From Geosiphon pyriformis (lineage: Eukaryota > Glomeromycota > Glomeromycetes > Archaeosporales > Geosiphonaceae): DNA of 33,453 nt. The stretch spans positions 29,008 to 62,460 of the forward strand of contig JAAOMT010000603.1 in the NCBI GenBank assembly GCA_016748015.1, in the 5' to 3' direction. The notes under the pieces are model-generated. The model did not search any database, was not told the DNA's origin, and worked only from the letters and a program-made list of their open reading frames with translations. Below, one piece after another: positions 1,321 to 23,148 of this stretch. The translations under genes and the position numbers were made by a program. The first letter of the stretch is position 1. Every line of letters starts with the position of its first letter.

Positions 1321-4186
<2,866 letters not shown>

Positions 4187-6194: not shown

Positions 6195-8026
6195 TTATGC
6201 ATAATAAGAATTTATAATTTTCCAAATCAACATAGTCATTGCCAAAGAGATTAGAGATACAAGTATGGGGCCGATAAATGAAAAAGAATTACGCGGTTCT
6301 TGGACAACTCGCTTCAATATATCTTCCAAAGTAGTTATGAAAGCAGTTAAAGAAAAGGAATCTTTCACGTGTTTTCTTCCATTATCCCCCATAAGTTCAC
6401 GGTCGAATTGCCCATTCAAGATGGAGGCTATAGATTGTGAAAAAGATTCTGGTGTCGGTTCACATAAAAATCCCGTTTCACCATCAATTACAGTTTCCTT
6501 TGGTCCTCCATTATTCACAGCTATCACTGGAAGTCTAGCGTACATAGCTTCTATCGGTACGATTCCGAAATGTTCATTCGATGGTGTATATAGGAGGCAG
6601 ATGGCACTCGAAAGTAAGAAATTTCTTTGTAGCTCAGTAAAAGAACATAGAAACACAACTTGAGTAGACTCTGGAGGCGAATTAAATGACCCAGGATTAA
6701 TACTAAATGTTTCAAGGTCAAGTTGAATGGCAATTTGTTCCAGCTCAAGATGATGCTCTACGTTTTCTTGAACACGAAAATCAAAACCCCCTGAAAAGAA
6801 TATATATTAATATAAGAGAAAAACTAACTCTAAGATTCTATCACTCATCCCTACCAGCAATTATTAACCGAAGATTGTCAAATTCACCATCGGAGACCAA
6901 TTGATTGTTTCGCAAAGCAGCAAAAGCCTTAATTGCAAGAGAGATATTCTTTTTTCTTTCAAAGCGATTGATTGAAAGTATAATTTTTTTTCGACTTGTA
7001 AAATCCATTAGGAGTGTATCATTAATTTAGAATTTCAATAAAAATGATATATTTTAATAAAATGTGGAGTAAATCTCTTACCTTTCCAAAATTCTTACTT
7101 CAACTTTACTGGGAATGTCCCTATCATAAGAATCTAAATTTATACCAGGGTATAAAACTTGTGGAATTCTTTTAATATTAGGGAAGGAGAGACTGAAAAT
7201 CTTTGCTGTAAAACGGCTGTTCACAACAATGCAATCTGAGATTCCTAGAAAATAAATAGACCTGTTAGTATAGCCTAAATTAAAAGCATTGAGAAATATC
7301 TGTTACTTGCCAGTTGTTACCTCTTCAAACTTATCAACGGGTAACCTATAGAGTTTTTTCAAAATTGATTCTCGCCGTGTCAATAGTTTATCAGGAAAAT
7401 GGCAATAAAATAAAATCTAAAATTTTCAATGTATTAAAATTAGTCAGAAAAAACCGTGACAGAGAGAGTTGGCTCGATCAAAAACATATTACCTTGGCCC
7501 CAGTCCAGCTTAATATTGGTACACTGGCGGACAATTGATCAACAAAGATAACATCAAATTTCTGTCTATCCCAATAAAGTAGTGCAAGTGTCAAATGAAA
7601 TTGTCGCAAGATGGCGCAAACTATGTAGAAGGAACCAAATATAGTACGCGGTATAACCGAGTTACCACGAACACGGACTTCAAGAGTGCCTGGTTGGAAA
7701 AAATGTAATTAATACAGTCTAAGAGTTCCAAAACTCAATAACACGAAAGTGGCAAAGAAGTGGAAACGTTAACCATTTTTTGTTTCTTCGAAACAATGTG
7801 CTGGGTCATGGTACATAGTGTATATAGTTACTTTATGGCCTCTTGACTGAAGGCCTAAAGCAGCGTCAACTACCAATCGTTCAGCACCTCCTAGGAAAAG
7901 TACAGTTTAAAAGTTAAAACCACCCGGACATCAAGCCTAAAGAGTGACTATTCATTCAATCCTAAGGCTACCTATGCCGAGATCGGGGTGTACGAAACCA
8001 ACATTCAAAAATTTTGTGGTAGACAT
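6195..8026 (-). CDS. ALG2: ALG2 alpha-1,3/1,6-mannosyltransferase
   Basis: Glycosyltransferase family 4 enzyme that adds the second and third mannoses (alpha-1,3 and alpha-1,6) from GDP-mannose to the dolichol-linked N-glycan precursor on the cytosolic face of the ER. Seven exons in gene order: 8026-7972, 7890-7774, 7689-7493, 7416-7311, 7244-7082, 6994-6855, 6790-6195; 457 aa (yeast 503, human 416). Seen: N-terminal [17 protein letters not shown] donor/acceptor loop, [15 protein letters not shown], the [12 protein letters not shown] segment, RLIIAGGFD, and the E-x7-E motif in [13 protein letters not shown], then VNNGGPKE. A hydrophobic helix near the C-terminus (about 430-450) could anchor it to the membrane. 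Intron 4 uses a GC donor (G|GCAAGT); no GT donor keeps VTTGISDCIV in frame. It is divergent from the CLC gene with only 45 bp between start codons. Confidence 0.93.
7245..7310 (-). other. GC-AG intron, 66 nt, in ALG2
   Basis: On the minus strand the donor is ACTG|GCAAGT, a near-ideal GC donor, and the acceptor is TTTTCTAG. A TACTAAC branch site lies upstream of the acceptor. Splicing gives [13 protein letters not shown], the conserved ALG2 sequence; the nearby GT (GTAACA) gives a stop in the next exon. Confidence 0.85.
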
Positions 8027-8071: not shown

Positions 8072-11000
8072 ATGTCATTACTGCACAGCGCACAGGAAAA
8101 TTGTGCAATTTTCATAAGAATGGATCATGTCACACATCAAGAGATTCTGTTGACTGATTTTCTAAATATTATGTCTTCCTCTATCAGAGAGCAAGAAACC
8201 AGAAATCTTTTCTTGTCCAGAATTTATGGGTTTGTATTAAACTTTAGAAACAGTATTATTAAGAATTTATAACACAACTTACTTTTTTCAATAGAATTTG
8301 GGACTCTTTTCGACAACTTGAGTATACTAAACTTGGGGAAAGTACCTCTTCACCTTCAATAATACCTTTATCACCTATCACACCGCAAACATCAACCTTT
8401 AGTAATGACAATCATAATAATAGTAACTATGATAAAGGATTAGAGAATATAAAACGATACGAAGATTTTACCACAATAGGTAATTAATTCGATATAAATT
8501 AATCAACATTAATTTGATTTGAGAAAATAAACTTCGGTCCTGAAAATAAGAATAAACATCCCAGAAATATTTTCTACAAAGACAAATATTGTCATCAACA
8601 CTAAATCGGATCAAAATATTTATATCACATTTTTAGATTGGGTTCAAGAAGCCGTACGTGAACGAACACGACAAAACGCATTAAAAGCAGCGGCAAATGA
8701 AAATCGTTCTTCGTGGATTACATGGTTTTGGCTATATTACGAAGCCTTACAAGTCTGGATCGTTGTTTCTATCGTTGGTTTGTATAGCATTACAAGTTTT
8801 CTCTGTATTACTCATTATTTCTCAATATATTCTTTGTAATAAATCATTAGGCTCTCTGATTGGACTCAACGCAGGATTAATTGATATCACTACTGAATGG
8901 TTGTCAGACATCAAATTAGGCTATTGTAGAAATTCATGGTGGTTAAACCAAAAATTTTGTTGTTTGGAACAAGAAGGTAAAAAAATCATTTTTTTAGTAT
9001 AATTGATCCTTACTTTTATTTCTAAATCGATTCTTTTTTGTATAAAAAACAGATGGCTCTTGCGAGGAATGGAAACTTTGGTCTAGATTTTTTATAATCA
9101 ATTGGATATTTTATATAACTTTCGCCGTACGTGGTGTTATTCAAAAATTCTTGATCAAAATTATTAATCTTTTAATATGTCATTGCTCACAAATAACATA
9201 ATTTCCCTAATTATTTCTTAATAGACTACATTCGCCGCCGTCTGCGCCCATTTAATACGAAGTTTTGCACCTTATGCTGCCGGTTCGGGAATCGCAGAAA
9301 TCAAATGTATTTTGGCAGGCTTTGTAATGAAAGGATTTTTGGGAAGTTGGACTTTGCTTCTAAAAAGCGTTGGTCTGGTGAGTCTTAACTTCTTTGAATA
9401 TGATATATTGATTTCTTGCTAAGACAGCTAATTCAAAGCTCCTATTTAGCCCCTCGCAATTGCATCAGGTTTGAGTGTTGGTAATGAAGGCCCATCGGTG
9501 CATACAGCATCATGTATCGGAAATGTCATTTCGAGAATGTTTGGGCAATACAAGGGGAATAAAGGTTGAATTTAATTTTAAGATGTGAATATTTAGATGG
9601 ATGCTTAACGTATTATTTTTGATTACCAGCAAAAAAGCGGGAAATATTATCGGCCTCATGTGCCGCTGGAGTAGCCGTTGCTTTTGGTTCTCCCATCGGA
9701 GGTGTTTTATTCTCTTTTGAAGTAAGGTTGAAACTCGTGAAATCTTGATTTTTTTAATTTATATTTAAAAAAATCAATATACCTTATTGTAACATTCAGG
9801 AAATGAGCTCTAATTTTCCCATGAAAACAATGTGGCGAAGTTTTTTTTGTGCTTTGGTGGCCACCGCTGTGCTACAGGTATATTAAATATTCATTTGCGA
9901 TCATTTTTCTTCAAATATTTCATGGTAATTTTTTTCAAAGGGTATGAATCCATTTCGAACCGGGAAACTTGTACTGTTTCAAGTAACATATGATCGTACA
10001 TGGCATTTCTTTGAGATCATATTTTTTGCACTCCTCGGTATTTTTGGGGTAAGGAATTGCTATCAATTTTGAAATTTTTTTACTTTTGATTATTTGATTA
10101 ATCAATATTTTTTTATTTATAGGGATTATACGGGGCCTTTGTGACAAAATACAATTTAAAAGTTCAAGCTTACCGCAAAAAGTATTTAAAAGAACATGGA
10201 GTCGCCGAAGCGATTATTCTTGCATTTCTTACAACCTTGATAGGATATCTCAATATTTTTATGAGATTGGACATGAAAGAAACATTGGGCATTTTATTTA
10301 GAGAATGTGAAGAAGGAGTAGGGGATTATGAAGGCTTATGTCGGTAAATCTCTCAAATATATATTATAGGATTTTTTCAGAAGTTGTATCAATCTTGCAA
10401 TTATTATTTTTAGACGAGCTGAAATGACTAGGATGGCCTGGCTCTTATTTATCGCAACTATTCTTCGGACTGGCTTTGTGATAATAACTTATGGTGCAAA
10501 AGTAAATTCAAAGTATAATAAATAAATTCCCTTTGATAAAACGTCCCATTTGCTAATGAACTCCCCATCTAACCTTCAGGTGCCTGCTGGCATATTTATT
10601 CCATCAATGACTGTTGGTGCCACATTTGGACGATTTGTCGGCATCATAGTAAAATCTATACACTTGTACGTTGCACCTAAATTATATATCATCTTATTAA
10701 CTGAGAACAGTGCTGACATTCTCACGTATCCAAACTGATGGCAATCAAGATATGAACTGATCCTGGTCTAGCAAAACTGAAACGATACCAGGTCCGTATC
10801 GTATGATCGTACTGATACAGCTTTGGTCTCGTTACAGCTTGCATTTATACAATTCCTGGAATCAGTATAATTGTATCAATACCAGGATCAATCGATCTCT
10901 TAATCATCATCATTTCAACAATTTTTTCAATTAATTGGCCGATAATCTGCAGCGTAATATCAACTACCGAAATCAACGCTTTCTTTGAGGACACTGATTT

Positions 11001-12761
11001 CGAGGACCTCATCTAGTTTGATAATCGTTTCTCGATGCCAGTTACATCGCCCACTGGGTATACAATAATTTATTGCATAAACAGATCACTTAAATAACCT
11101 TCCATTACTCAAATTTAGGTCTTATCCTAAATTTCCGTTATTTTCCAGCTGTAAGCCGGATGTGCCAGTGAGTGCTGGGTATTTTCATTACCAATATGTC
11201 TATAATTCAATTTTCGAAACTGATTTCTTTGATCCTTATAGTGTATCACTCCAGGAATGTACGCATTCTTAGGTGCTGCAGCTGCTTTAGGGTTAGTAGG
11301 AATTAATTCATTATTCAATATTTTTTACCTTAATTTGCTTAAATCTTTAAAATTTTCTTTTCTAATACCCAAATTTCAGTGGGATCATGCATCTTACAGG
11401 TAATTGCTTAACTAATCAGATTTCAGTTATTAATGTATGAGGTTAACATAATGGTTTTTATAGTATGCGTTGTTGTCATCATGTTCGAACTGACTGGTGC
11501 TTTGACTTATATTTTACCAACAATGGTAAAATTTTCACAATAAAACATTACCTGGCTTAATTAAACTATTCCATTTTATAAATTTCTTTCACTACTATTG
11601 TAGATTACTCTTATGATCACAAAGACAATCGGCGATTTCTTTGGAAAAGGGGGGATATATCCTTCATTTTTTGATTTTTAATTTATGTTACAATTTTAAG
11701 CTACATGATTCCTTAATAGATTCCTTTAATACTGCTGATCAAATGATTCGTTTAAACGGGTATCCCTTCTTGCATAAAGAGGAATATTCATTTGGGGTTT
11801 CAGGCAAGTAATTCGTCCTGAAAGCTCGATAGTTTATTCACATTTTAACTTACTTTATATTTTAGTTGGGGAGGTTATGCAAAAGGATCTCATGGTTATG
11901 ACTTCTGGCCAACGCTTGGATGAAATTGGTATCATAAATATTTTATTATTCTTGTTTCCCTGATTTAAATTTAATCTGTTCTGTTTTTCACCAAGATCAA
12001 ATATTACTCGAGAAAAATTATCAAGGATTCCCTGTAGTGAAAAATAAGGAGAGTATGATTTTAGTAGGGTATATAGGACGTTCTGAATTAAAATATGTTA
12101 TAGGTGAGTTGAATATTTTAACTAAATTTCTTAATCCTATTAGTGAATAACCCTTATTTCAAATTTTTCATTCAGACAAAGCTAAACGGATACACGGGAT
12201 CTCAAATGACGCTCAATGTTTTTTCAATCTAGAGGGAGCCAATTCTAATATCGATGGTAATGATATTAGCCAAAGCTCTTCGAGCTTTATAGACTTTGGT
12301 TCCTTTATTGATGAGGTGAAAATGTTTCTGGTTTTCATTTGCATATCTTTCAATGTCATCATTAATATTATGATTCATCGGCAGACTCCCATGTCTGTTC
12401 ATCCTCGATTGCCACTAGAAACAGTCGTAGATCTATTCAGAAAAATGGGGTAACTTCTAATTTTTTCTTGTCTAAATCACATTGATTTTAGGCTTCAAGG
12501 CTAAAAGATTATATAACTTTTAGACCCCGGGTTATTCTGATTGAATATATAGGAAAATTGGTGGGACTCATAACTGTGAAAGATGTGTTAAAATATATAG
12601 CCAAGAGGGAAGAAGCCGAAGAACTAGAAACTATTATACCAGATGCTAGTCAAACCTCGTATAGTGACGACGATGGACTGGAGCTAGTATCTAGAAATTC
12701 CAGAAAACAAGGTCTATCATTGTTGGAAATGGGTCGATTACAAACCAGTGAAGATAGTTAA
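8072..12761 (+). CDS. CLC-type voltage-gated chloride/proton exchanger with CBS domains
   Basis: Intracellular CLC antiporter of the Gef1/CLC-3 class, acidifying Golgi, endosome or vacuole by exchanging Cl- for H+. 24 exons: 8072-8229, 8295-8479, 8637-8777, 8851-8976, 9053-9126, 9225-9377, 9450-9564, 9630-9721, 9800-9877, 9941-10048, 10123-10343, 10414-10501, 10580-10665, 11149-11167, 11242-11291, 11380-11399, 11464-11525, 11604-11656, 11733-11803, 11866-11928, 11996-12103, 12176-12315, 12385-12449, 12524-12761; 837 aa. Selectivity motifs [16 protein letters not shown] (gating glutamate kept), [10 protein letters not shown] (proton glutamate kept) and [15 protein letters not shown] are all present, so an exchanger rather than a channel is likely. 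The C-terminus has two CBS segments (VGEVMQKDL... and [17 protein letters not shown]...TVKDVLKYI). Exons 14 and 16 are 19 and 20 nt; intron 18 is U12-type; intron 19 is GC-AG; intron 13 (483 nt) is far longer than the rest. The start is less certain than the rest. Confidence 0.92.
10758..10890. repeat. 133-bp foldback-like element inside CLC intron 13
   Basis: A perfect 10-bp inverted repeat, TGATCCTGGT at 10758-10767 and ACCAGGATCA at 10881-10890, encloses sequence with further internal inverted pairs (ACGATAC/GTATCGT and ATACAATT/AATTGTAT). It sits in the only long intron of the gene (10666-11148). This is consistent with a small non-autonomous insertion, but no clear target duplication is seen. 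Confidence 0.4.
11657..11732 (+). other. U12-type AT-AC intron (minor spliceosome), 76 nt, in the CLC gene
   Basis: The donor is ATATCCTT at 11657-11664, the exact U12 AT-AC consensus. TTCCTTAAT at 11709-11717 matches the U12 branch site, with the branch A about 16 nt before the AC acceptor (11731-11732). There is no GT or GC donor here that keeps frame. Splicing GGGGGGAT to TGCTGATC reads [18 protein letters not shown], the conserved CLC segment. Confidence 0.88.
11804..11865 (+). other. GC-AG intron, 62 nt, in the CLC gene
   Basis: Donor TTCAG|GCAAGT, acceptor ATTTTAG. It joins FGVS to [11 protein letters not shown], entering the first CBS domain. The GT four bases downstream gives the wrong frame. 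Confidence 0.85.
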
Positions 12762-13816: not shown

Positions 13817-16800
13817 ATGGTAAGTTCTCTTGATAAAAGCAAAATATACTGTAATTTAAGTCATTTTTTGAATTCGCGGATTTTAGGAGCAAATAGACCC
13901 CTCTGCAGCACTATTGAGTCTTCTTCACCAGAACCAATCTTCCCCAGCTGAATCATCGGGGGCTTTTCAAAGAAATTCAAGTGCTCAATCCTCATTCTCC
14001 CAAACAAACTCACAACCACCGACACAATCATCCCCACTGCTGCAACAGGATTCGACGAGCACTGCCTTATCCCTGTTCAGCGTGTCTCCTTATCGAGATC
14101 CTGGTTCCCAATCATTTAATGGGGGACTTAGTCTCATTTCGGGTATGACACTTCCCTCTAATGGCGTTCCCCCAGCTTCACCACCACCTCTATCGCCACC
14201 TCTAGAAACAATATCCCCATTATCCTCACATATTCATGTCTTGAAACCCATACCGATGGCTCCCCCACCTCCACCAATGTCCTATGTGACTTCTTATACA
14301 CGGGTGGCTTCTACAAATGCTTCTAGTGAGTCTGCTTCTCCTTCAACTTCTTCGGCCGCCTTAAATGTGGATCCCACTTTGAATGTTGATGAAGTACAAA
14401 CTAAATCTTTAAAATTGGCTCTTTTTGGTCCACAACAAATATCACAATTTGAAGTTGAAAATAATATCAGGTAAAATCCACAATCTATTTCGATTTGCTA
14501 TTTTATTCGAATGTTATAGTTTGTTTTATAAATATTTTCCCTTAAATACTATTAATATTCATAATGTCTCTTAGTTACCAACAGGAAGATCGTTTAATCT
14601 TGCCTTCAATTGATCCTGATATAGCTCAAGTCACGAAAATCGTAGAGGAGAAGATCGTATCTCCTACTGAACCTGTGGCCGAAGAACCCAATCCCTCTCC
14701 AATTAAAGTGATAGACTACAACACATTAGGGAGCCTTTCAGTAATCAAGCCAACATCCAAATCTGAATCATCTTCCTCGGAGAAGCAGTCGCCTATAGCG
14801 GCTCACAAGTCAATTTTTACTTACACTAACCCATTCGACCTTCTGAAAAAATCTCCACCTTCCACCTCTCCCCCAACCCAAGAATTTGTCCCTCAACAAT
14901 GGTCCACGTTTAATTCTTCTCCCTCTCTTAAAAAGCGGGAGGTTTCTACGGTACAGAAGGAAGGTGGGATGTTTTCGAGACCACAACATCAAACAGAACC
15001 CTTCTTATCGGGCCTTTCTGCATGGAATGTTCGAGCTACTTCTGCGCTCAAAACAGATCTTAGGTAATAAAACTATAAAGCTTTTCGACCTTAAACAAAG
15101 TTGATCTTTTTTCGAACGAGATCTGTGTATTATCCTTTCTATAAGTTAATATTACAAATTTTTATTAGTACTCCTGATGGTGTAAGACTACCTCCTAATG
15201 ATATAATATACAGCGCAGCGGAACGAAATGAAGCAGTATTATGCACCAAAGACTTAAATTTAGAAACCATAACTTTAGTTCCAAGTGATCTCGAATATCG
15301 CGTTGGAAAATCAATTGCTGTAAATGGGCAATACATTTGCTATACAGTGAAAGGTATTTGTAGCGTATCTCTTTTTTCCATCATTGATTTCATTATTAGG
15401 AATTTATATTTTAACGGTTTTGATTTACAGCTGGAAAAGTTCGCGTGATTAGCCTGCTTTTTGGCAGCAAAACTTTGCTGCGAAACCATGAAAAACCAAT
15501 TCTTGATATATGCATTCAGCCTTCTCCCGCTATAGATGCTCCAACTGAAAAGCAGCTACTCCTTGCAATTGGAGCTGATAGCAAGATCACTGTATGGGAA
15601 CTCTCTGAGCCGCCACAAGAGCAAAATGCGGAAATTCCGTATGTCTATAGGTTTCAGCTCGTTATTTAAAAAGCCATCCCTGTTGAATCTACTCTGAATT
15701 TTTTAGATATAAGACTATACTTGAGATTGATGGAAAGGGATCTGCTGACGATAAACAACGGCGTTACCTTCGGGCCATTTGGCATCCCCTAAATCGAAAC
15801 ATGTTCGCTGTCGCAACGGACACCAATGATGTTCTATTAATAAATATCGATAAACTCTTGCAGGGTAAAGAAATAGGGAGCTTCAAAGAATTTGAAATTG
15901 CCGAAAGGATTATCAAAACTGATCGTCATGACGAGGTTAATAATTTTGGCAATTAGATATTTATTATTTATTATCGGAATCATCCTAAATTTCCCTCTTC
16001 CTTTCAATGGAATATAGCCTATAACTGACATGGCATTTTCATATGATGGAACCATCCTTGCAACAGCAAGTTTTGAAAATATAATGTTTTCCGAGTCGGA
16101 GATAAATGATGATGTTTTCGAAGGAATTGGGCCAATTCACAAAATCATCATGAGCGGAGAACAAATTTCGTCGCTTTTCTTAGTTAACCCTGATAGTTGG
16201 CTTATAGGATCTCAGGAGCTTCAGCTGAAATGTCGCTATGCAATTATTGGTACCGAACGAAATACCAAATTACATCTTTATGATGTTGTGGAAGGACAAA
16301 TAATTCAGACTATAACGTTTTTGCCACCACCTGCCAGACGCCCATCTTTGAATAAAGCCTATCGAAAGGAGGAAGACATGTTTAATTGCATCGATTTTGA
16401 TCAACATAGTGGAACCCTGGTTCTTGCGAATAGTGCCAGAATATCCATTATTGCTTTGCATTTGAACACCTCACGGGAAAAGATAGATGATTCAAGCATC
16501 CCCCAATATAATACAGCTGCCAAAGAACCCATTGAAAATGAGCTAACAACATCACTTGAAGAATATTCTGCTGAATCTTCCAATCTGGCACAGTTTGATT
16601 ACATGATTGAGTATCCGATAAATCAACTTGTCGGTAGTTTTGTGCTTGTCTCAGATGTGTCAACCTCGAATCAGTCCAACGGATTTTCTTTTTATTGTAT
16701 TCAATCTAAAGCGGTACAGCAATATCACATTGCTTGCGAGGTATTGTTACCAAACAATATTGATGCTTGTCCTTTATTTGAAAGCGCTACGCGTATGGTC

Positions 16801-19465
16801 GGCCCAGTTGAACACGACGATAAAAAAATATTTACTATGGAATCCATGGTGGATGATATCAAGGAAGAAGCTGAAAAAAGGCTCACAAAGTCATCGGTCA
16901 AGTCTGAAAATTCACAATATCCAGTCTTTGATGAAAAAATTGAAAAAGACCTTATTAAAGAAACAGTTGTGGGTCAAGCCTCTACGGTTGCCGAGATTCC
17001 TCCAAATGATTTAAATGCACTTGGTTCGGAAATACAAGAGATAGAGGTAACGGAAAAAAGAACAGTTTCTGAATACGCCTCTGATAATATTCTAGAGGCA
17101 GCTCTGAGTGCTCTTAATAACCCCGAAGAAATTGAAGGAAAAAGTTTGGACAATCCCAAGGGGACATCATCTGGGATTAAACTTTCTGGGTCCGCTGTCA
17201 ATGTTACAATTGCGAAACTGAAAGAAAAAAAGAGAGGAAATGGTTCAACAGTCCACAGTGATACTTTATCTGATTCAGAGAAAAACATAAGACGTAAGGA
17301 GTCCCGAAAAGTTATCGAAAAGGAAAAGGAAAAGGAAGTTGCTGATGGCTTTTCAGATACCATTGGGAAACCTGCGGGAAAGAAAGCAATAAATGGGAAA
17401 CTCACTAGCAGTGCTGAAAAATCACGTAGAAACGCCGATACACCTCAAGAAATTCCAAACAATAGGACCAATGCTGGCACCAAACTTTTTTCACCTACTA
17501 ATCCGTTATCATCCTCTAGTGGATACGAACTACTTATAGCAAATGATGTTTCTCAACAAGGTCAAAGGCGGTCCATTGCCTCACCTGAAGTTTATAGCAA
17601 TCAAAACCTTACCCGAGAATTGAAAAAAATAGAGGACAGTCTTACAAACAAAATCAGCAAAATGTTCGCTAAAGAAATGGATAAGCAATGTTTGTCACCT
17701 TAATTTATTTGTTTCAAAATCTTATCTAACATTAATGAAGGAAACTAACCTTGCTATCTAATTGATTTATCCTGATAGATCAAAGATTGGAAGATGAACG
17801 CAACTCTCATCAAGCAGCCGAGACCACGCGTCAGGAAACTATTCTGAAGCTAGTTTCACAAGCTCTTAACAATAACACTGCAAAATTTTTGGAATCAACT
17901 ATTCGCTCGGAAATACAAAATAATGTCATTCCCATGTTGAACAAATTAGTCGCTACTTCAGTTGACAAACAGGTTAACCGTGGAATGGTAGAAGCTATTA
18001 ACAAAGTATACAATGATAATTGATATCCGATGTTTGAGGGAATTATGAATAGATTGTTAATTTTTACTGATGCATTTATTTACGTCCAGAGTATCCCGGC
18101 GGCTATTGATAAAACAGTAACAGAAAATGTACAACGTGTACTCTCAAAATCATCGGTTATTGATTCTATTGCAAAGAGTGTATCCAAGTCTATCAAACCT
18201 ATAATTGAAGAAATATATCGGGAAAATTTTTCCAATATGCTGATCCCTTCATACCAAAACGCCACTACTGCTATGTTTGAGCAAATTCACAGAACTTTCG
18301 AGGCTGGATTACAGCAGATCGCGCAAAAGACTGCGCAATCTCATGCTGGATCTGCTGCAGAATCAAGTGCCATAGTACGGCTTCAAGCCTCAATTGATCA
18401 ACTCACCATTTCGATGTCGCAATTGCAACAGGTGCAACAGCTGCAAGCCACCATGCAAGCCAATCTAATAAGTCAATTGAATGGTTCGCATTCTGAACAA
18501 CAAATTGGAAGAAATTCTAATGAATATCCTTTTTCTCTTCTCGAAATCTTGAAGATTTTAATCAAGAAATTCCCATGTAAAGTAGGATGGAAATTCCCTT
18601 AACCATACCTCTTTCTTACCCTGCAGCATCAATTAGCTCGCGAACTGAAGAAAATGCTCAATCCGCAAGTGATGGCGGCATCTCAAACGTCGTCGACGAT
18701 TGCGCAAGATTTATATGGATACCCATCTTCAGGCAGAACATCATCTTCACAACAACAACAGCAGCATCATCAACAAACACCTCTTCAACAACATCACCTT
18801 CAACAACAGCGACAAATATTTTCTCCTATGGAGCCTCCTGGACTCGTGGAGCTGAAAACAACTATCGATCGACTTTTAGAATTAGGGGAGTATGAAGAGG
18901 CTTTTTTAAAGGTATGTCCTTCATAAATGCTAAAAAATCATGTTTACGACACCATTTGTTAACTATCCCTATACTTTTCTCCTGACCAAAGGCTCTCGCA
19001 TCCAGTGATCTATCAATAATTTTACGCCTCTGCAATAAAGTGAGCCCTAAAACCGTGTTTTTCCCGTCACGACCATTGCTCTCCCAGCCTGTGATACTTT
19101 CACTTGTTCATCAACTTACCTTTGATTTAAGTAATTATCCGGAGCTAAAGTTCTTGTGGATAGAAGAGGCTTTGATTCATTTGGTTCCTAAGGTAACATG
19201 TTGATTTGCAATTTATCAATTTATTCTTACGTAGACATGAATCTTTAAACTCCCCATTATTTGGTCCCTTGGATATTTTCTATAATTGCAGGATAAAACT
19301 ATCAGAGATCATTCTCAAGTGATTCTTCAACTTGCAAGGCAACGATTGATAGATCGCTGTAGTCAAATTGCCTCTGAAGAAAATCAGAACCCTTATTTGA
19401 AAAGCATCACGGTTCTAATTCACATATTGAATAGTCTCATGAAATATCCCAACACTCAAACATGA
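13817..19465 (+). CDS. EDC4/Ge-1-like enhancer of mRNA decapping (WD40 scaffold)
   Basis: Scaffold of cytoplasmic P-bodies that brings the decapping activator DCP1 and catalytic DCP2 together. Twelve exons: 13817-13819, 13887-14470, 14575-15063, 15169-15353, 15431-15638, 15707-15935, 16018-17689, 17779-18005, 18090-18581, 18627-18911, 18992-19192, 19292-19465; about 1582 aa. In order: a Ser/Pro/Gln-rich disordered N-terminus (1-360) with a PPPPP run; a WD40 region (about 370-720) with ADSKITVWEL, RYLRAIWHP and MAFSYDGTILATAS; a charged linker; long coiled-coil helices (about 1085-1340); a Gln/His-rich patch; and the helical C-terminal domain ELKTTIDRLLELGEYEEAF...ALASSDLSIILRLCNKVSP...LLSQPVILSLVHQL. 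That C-terminal domain is the strongest family signature. The first coding exon is only the ATG, followed by a perfect GTAAGT donor. The exon 9-10 junction is uncertain: the 45-nt intron chosen could instead be 18577-18636 (60 nt, five residues shorter). Confidence 0.9.

Positions 19466-19787: not shown

Positions 19788-23148
<3,361 letters not shown>

Follow-up and report, generated by a model that had tools for sequence, protein, structure and literature searches.

Minor (U12-type) introns are already known from fungi. The glomeromycete Rhizophagus irregularis has been reported to have 205 minor introns, along with all four minor snRNAs and many minor-specific proteins (Larue et al. 2023, PMC10639083), and the portions of that paper drawn on here also give 249 minor introns for Basidiobolus meristosporus. 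U12 introns were described earlier in Rhizopus oryzae and Phycomyces blakesleeanus (Bartschat and Samuelsson 2010, PMC2846911), about 4 in the former and about 20 in the latter as cited in PMC10639083. Here we consider an apparent AT-AC intron in a gene of Geosiphon pyriformis for a CLC-type Cl-/H+ exchanger. Rhizopus and Phycomyces are like Geosiphon in being early-diverging fungi with U12-type introns, theirs being both AT-AC and GT-AG in the relevant passages of PMC2846911, and Rhizophagus is like it in being a glomeromycete with both minor introns and minor-spliceosome genes, although it is a different species.

The intron is of a known kind, because minor introns and all four snRNAs have already been reported in Rhizophagus irregularis (PMC10639083, in the portions used). 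What is new is the Geosiphon CLC case, in a gene that is apparently split in the public record. The preliminary description of this DNA was right that a U12 intron appears to be kept in a fungus outside the Dikarya, but the surprise is smaller than its rating implied, given the 205 attributed to Rhizophagus irregularis in PMC10639083. The words chloride, CLCN and Geosiphon are absent from the main text of that paper, as is chloride from the main text of PMC2846911. In the open literature searched there was no paper with both Geosiphon and U12, and none that brings together an AT-AC intron, a chloride channel and the term U12-type.

A parallel with animal ion-channel genes had also been drawn. 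Animal voltage-gated Na+ and Ca2+ channel genes (Wu and Krainer 1999, via a review) also have minor introns and are membrane-transport genes, although they belong to another protein family and no shared position is implied. The likeness is superficial: one review, in the passages concerned, names sodium and calcium channels and another names voltage-gated ion channels only, and chloride appears in neither set of passages. A literature search on animal CLC genes sharing the intron position gave nothing of use.

A CLC exchanger gene with an AT-AC intron

The window, by which we mean the whole 33,453-nucleotide stretch of DNA that was analysed, comes from Geosiphon pyriformis, a glomeromycete that hosts cyanobacteria and thus the non-Dikarya fungus that had been supposed. 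The features on which the following sections draw are:

8072..12761, forward strand: gene for a predicted CLC-type Cl-/H+ exchanger of the ClC-3/4/5 group, 24 exons, 847 amino acids (exon joining, Pfam, PDB match)
11604..11656, forward strand: exon 18, end of the membrane domain, 17 residues plus two bases of the next codon (exon joining)
11657..11732, forward strand: putative AT-AC U12-type intron (frame, joint motif, and a public model that reads into the intron and then stops)
11657..11664, forward strand: predicted U12-type 5' splice site ATATCCTT (motif match; predicted U11 pairing)
11709..11717, forward strand: predicted U12-type branch site TTCCTTAAT (motif match; joint-motif scan)
11731..11732, forward strand: AC 3' splice site (splice-choice listing)
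11733..11803, forward strand: exon 19, start of the cytosolic part leading to the CBS domains (exon joining)
11804..11865, forward strand: GC-AG intron with a GCAAGT donor, directly 3' of exon 19 (splice listing)

The best PDB match of the joined product is a chain of exchanger-3 (ClC-3), over its length and with an E value of 7.1e-168. Voltage_CLC (PF00654) lies before the intron, in the first of two public parts of the gene, and two stretches of CBS (PF00571) lie after it, in the second, the AT-AC intron separating the membrane domain from the two CBS domains. The motifs GNEGP and FSFEEMS align with GKEGP and FSLEEVS of ClC-3, and their glutamates we take to be the gating and proton glutamates of CLC exchangers. 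With Voltage_CLC followed by two CBS domains in the joined chain, the predicted product is a CLC Cl-/H+ exchanger of the ClC-3/4/5 group, and the exchanger identity originally assigned to the gene is borne out. A search of the Geosiphon genome with 146 residues around the junction found only exons of this CLC gene, with four matches in contig C333.

The gene has 23 introns, comprising 21 GT-AG, one GC-AG (11804-11865) and one AT-AC (11657-11732); the last is the eighteenth, is 76 nt long and interrupts the frame in phase 2. Twenty of the other 22 are 62-98 nt in length, one is 157 nt and one 453 nt.

Several further features of the window were noted. The 453 nt CLC intron (10666-11118) may hold an insertion, 21 of the 23 introns being only 62-98 nt. 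Open frames were found with a Polo-box domain (3632-4186; PF00659, E 4.3e-16), with a Glycosyltransferase group 1 domain (6195-6656, minus strand; PF00534, E 9.1e-22), with a weak match, below the Pfam cut-off, to the WD40 part of the mRNA-decapping enhancer Ge1 (16030-17703), and with a PHD finger barely above cut-off (19788-20237, minus strand; PF00628, E 3.2e-5). A frame for an Rsc7/Swp82-type chromatin-remodelling subunit (21719-22570, minus strand; PF08624, E 2.1e-34) adjoins one with a very long glutamine run (21084-21662, minus strand).

U12-type branch sites follow a consensus like TTCCTTAAY and lie near the 3' splice site. In the AT-AC intron, TTCCTTAAT matches TTCCTTAAC at 8 of 9 positions, and its adenosines at 11715 and 11716 precede the final base of the intron by 17 and 16 nt. 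The donor ATATCCTT matches all eight positions of RTATCCTT, the rule for 5' splice sites of U12-type introns given in the passages used of PMC2846911. The donor, the branch site about 16 nt before an AC acceptor and the 76-nt length first described were thus all found in place. Either half of the motif alone is unremarkable, with four donor matches in the window against 3.69 expected and four branch-site matches against 2.63. The two combined as a joint motif and closed by AC or AG are found just once on the two strands, against an expectation per window of 0.007 (0.003 for AT-AC only) from 2000 first-order Markov simulations, and this single occurrence falls where the CLC reading frame requires an intron. 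It is also the sole one of the 23 CLC introns to score high on both U12 elements, at 7/8 after the first base and 8/9 at the branch site, a score pair above those of the other 22 (at most 5 and at most 7). This scoring, like the splice listing of the 23 introns and the queries behind two of the protein lists used below (those of 2358 and 4647 matches), used an exon-14 boundary at 11149, for which the public model gives 11119.

We listed the splice choices around the junction, taking GT-AG, GC-AG and AT-AC introns of at least 30 nt with donors from 11604 and acceptors up to 11799. Eighteen choices are in frame and free of stops, 16 of them AT-AC and two GC-AG, and only 11657-11732 yields GKGGIADQM. 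The earlier claim that no GT-AG or GC-AG splice keeps the frame holds for GT-AG, for which no such choice exists within these limits, but fails for GC-AG, as 11632-11719 and 11632-11779 both leave the frame open. We rejected these two choices, which have a poor donor in common, GCGATTTCT, and lose at least 10 conserved residues. Across the exon 18/19 junction the joined product and human ClC-3 align ungapped, 22 residues being compared on each side of the alignment, and the CLC-like character claimed for the 18 residues produced by the AT-AC splice is confirmed by this ungapped alignment. Motifs, frame and protein match therefore agree on a predicted U12-type AT-AC intron in a fungal CLC exchanger gene.

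Minor-spliceosome genes of Geosiphon

The Geosiphon genome (124.7 Mb, 406 contigs) was searched for the minor snRNAs and the minor-specific proteins. U11, U12 and U6atac each gave one match over cut-off, at 80.9 bits for U11 (contig C312, cut-off 39), 55.1 bits for U12 (C150, cut-off 53) and 70.9 bits for U6atac (C365, cut-off 33). A single U4atac candidate (C191, 43.7 bits, E 1.7e-4) is below the Rfam gathering score of 53. Its predicted duplex with U6atac covers both of the stretches expected (U4atac 3-19 with U6atac 33-48, and 57-63 with 24-30), and A10 of the candidate faces U41 of U6atac at positions that are g and C in the consensuses, such that a C-G pair has become U-A and is kept by change on both sides. 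The 3' end of the candidate is CAAUUUUUGGAAAA.

Genes for three minor-specific proteins are also present. For U11-59K/PDCD7 there is a family match over cut-off and a PDB match to the human protein (E 6e-7), and for U11/U12-25K a clear Pfam match (E 1.7e-9) with a weak PDB match to the human protein (E 0.0044). For U11-48K the family match is over cut-off, and about 320 bases beyond the zinc finger, with the same orientation, an open frame matches human U11-48K in the PDB (E 7.5e-9); the family searched for that finger (PF05253) also matched a Sulfolobus control, but it is human U11-48K itself that the neighbouring frame matches. The 14 control genomes were prokaryotes and thus weak controls for both the snRNA and the protein searches. 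SCNM1 (PF15803), whose model has 27 positions, had no match in the genome and none in any control either. The suggestion that this lineage keeps a minor spliceosome is thus upheld at the level of predicted genes, with three snRNA genes, a candidate fourth and three protein genes.

In a duplex prediction, the 5' end of U11 (AAGGG) is predicted to pair with the CCUU stretch of the donor ATATCCTT, as expected. With unconstrained prediction, the pairings of U12 with the branch site and of U6atac with the donor both fall in registers other than the usual ones. The Geosiphon U12 (L001:1501-1669) reads GUAAGGAUAA against the Rfam consensus GUaAGGAAAA, that is, AAGGAU for AAGGAA, and one pair with UUCCUU is lost, the first U of UUCCUU facing a U. 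This could point to a shifted branch-site code, and were that so, the matching code would be ATCCTTAAC.

We looked for the joint motif elsewhere and found no further instance in 200 kb of contig C312 (6,304 N) or in loci L001-L006, four control motifs giving 1, 0, 0 and 0 in the same 200 kb. The C312 scan says little, since a genome with about 205 minor introns, the number reported for Rhizophagus, would have only about 0.3 of them in 200 kb, and all but the best-matching ones would escape the motif. According to the passages used of PMC2846911, a U12 intron of the GT-AG kind lies towards the 3' end of RPS13 in both Rhizopus and Phycomyces. In Geosiphon RPS13 (L032, contig C402, minus strand) the last intron, of 224 nt and near the 3' end, starts with GTATCCTTTT, a perfect donor of the U12 type; no branch-site match in the 40 nt nearest the AG is better than 6/9, a 7/9 match (TCCTTTAAC) lies 56 nt away, and the 3' end is polypyrimidine-rich. 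As no good branch site lies near the AG, we do not regard this intron as proven to be of the minor class; it is perhaps a minor intron turning into the major type.

The junction in public gene models

The public Geosiphon annotation has two models that meet at the intron. G9A89_015358 is identical to residues 1-620 of the joined product and ends YPSFFDF, the AT-AC intron having been read through to the first stop. G9A89_015359 starts at a methionine four codons after the split codon, and all of its 224 residues are identical to residues 624-847. One CLC gene has therefore apparently been recorded as two, broken at the AT-AC intron.

We examined the same junction in 11 other Glomeromycotina CLC models, picked by name from three protein lists (best 120 of 2358, of 4647 and of 411), scoring a model as gapped when 3 or more of 12 residues are missing. 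Among the matches listed, the junction is gapped in nine of these 11 and in one of 198 models outside the group (P0124). A tenth (Entrophospora P0010) is mis-joined at the junction by eye, and only that of Gigaspora rosea is intact, being a single chain with the joined sequence. The 11 include two models of a single Entrophospora isolate and five that bear the label partial, and the Racocetra model P0222 begins immediately after the junction; the independent number is therefore below 11. The 198 outside models come from two best-120 lists, and mis-joins that leave no gap were sought by eye in the 120 models of one list only; among the best 120 of 2358, none of the 113 non-Glomeromycotina models is gapped here. 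At the other 22 junctions, between 1 and 6 of the 11 Glomeromycotina models are gapped; in the 198 outside models the corresponding numbers are 41 to 177 across junctions one to five, in the region of a divergent or missing N-terminus, and 0 to 9 at the rest. A Rhizophagus CLC was absent by name from the protein lists (best 120 of 2358, 4647 and 411).

How these models fail is also informative, with the DNA of the relatives at the junction being deduced from protein letters alone. The Paraglomus model ends TKGGIYPF and that of Ambispora reads GKGGIYPLDML, as expected from ATATCCTTT read in phase; this end and this continuation fit read-through of a ATATCCTT donor. The reading HTADQM in two Funneliformis models is what would be expected from ...CAYAC|T. 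Because the models of relatives fail as read-through of the intron would make them fail, the AT-AC intron is probably old in the subphylum, and on these protein letters it would date to the early history of the Glomeromycotina.

Proposed splicing of the intron and its meaning

Taken with its motifs, its frame, the protein match, the minor-spliceosome genes of the genome and the failures of the relatives' models, 11657-11732 is almost certainly a genuine U12-type (minor) AT-AC intron; from the same observations we infer that it is spliced and by which machine. The order of events in minor splicing, with U11 and U12 acting before U4atac/U6atac and U5, is established. In Geosiphon, U11 and U12 would recognise ATATCCTT and TTCCTTAAT, U4atac/U6atac with U5 would then take the place of U11, and removal of the 76 nt would bring the membrane domain of the CLC protein into one chain with the two CBS domains. 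Were the intron not removed, a stop would be met seven residues beyond GGI, leaving a protein that lacks the CBS domains.

It is conceivable, though unlikely, that this minor intron is subject to regulated retention, with some of the transcript keeping it and encoding a CLC protein without CBS domains. On read-through the chain ends early, in Geosiphon with seven residues after GGI (YPSFFDF) and in the Paraglomus model with three (YPF), but the Ambispora model continues past the junction, and models from automatic gene prediction do not testify to transcripts. Passages of a review and of a paper speak of slow or inefficient minor splicing, although newer mouse data in the same part of that review qualify the idea of a general inefficiency. 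A broader proposal, which we regard as a long shot, is that an AT-AC minor intron has lain exactly between the membrane and CBS parts since the early Glomeromycotina, that its slow splicing would act as a switch between the full and the CBS-less transporter, and that AAGGAU in U12 would be the lineage's shifted branch-site code.

U2-type AT-AC introns exist, and the other 22 introns of the gene are GT-AG or GC-AG, none of them combining a strong U12 donor with a strong branch site, such that removal of the AT-AC intron by the major (U2) spliceosome could be entertained. We consider it very improbable with a donor matching at 8/8, a branch site at 8/9, the best score pair of the 23 introns and a genome that has minor-spliceosome genes. 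That the gene simply ends at IYPSFFDF as in the public record, whether through a GC-AG or other cryptic splice or through a natural stop with no intron, is scarcely credible, for although G9A89_015358 and G9A89_015359 are separate models and both GC-AG choices keep the frame open, the second model starts at the fourth codon past the junction and bears the CBS domains found on the same chain in this CLC group, and the Gigaspora rosea model has the joined sequence as one chain.

With the minor-intron reading, minor splicing is extended to Geosiphon, and the case shows a cost of gene prediction, as the CLC gene is split, truncated or mis-joined at this point in 11 of 12 named Glomeromycotina genes (that of Geosiphon and 10 of the 11 other models). 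The gene prediction behind such models probably disallows AT-AC ends. Since CLC models are split at an AT-AC intron, surveys of minor introns that are built on annotated genes may undercount AT-AC introns in Glomeromycotina, a worry about annotation-based surveys that is raised in the portions used of PMC10639083 itself. Split gene models of this sort may mark further AT-AC introns.
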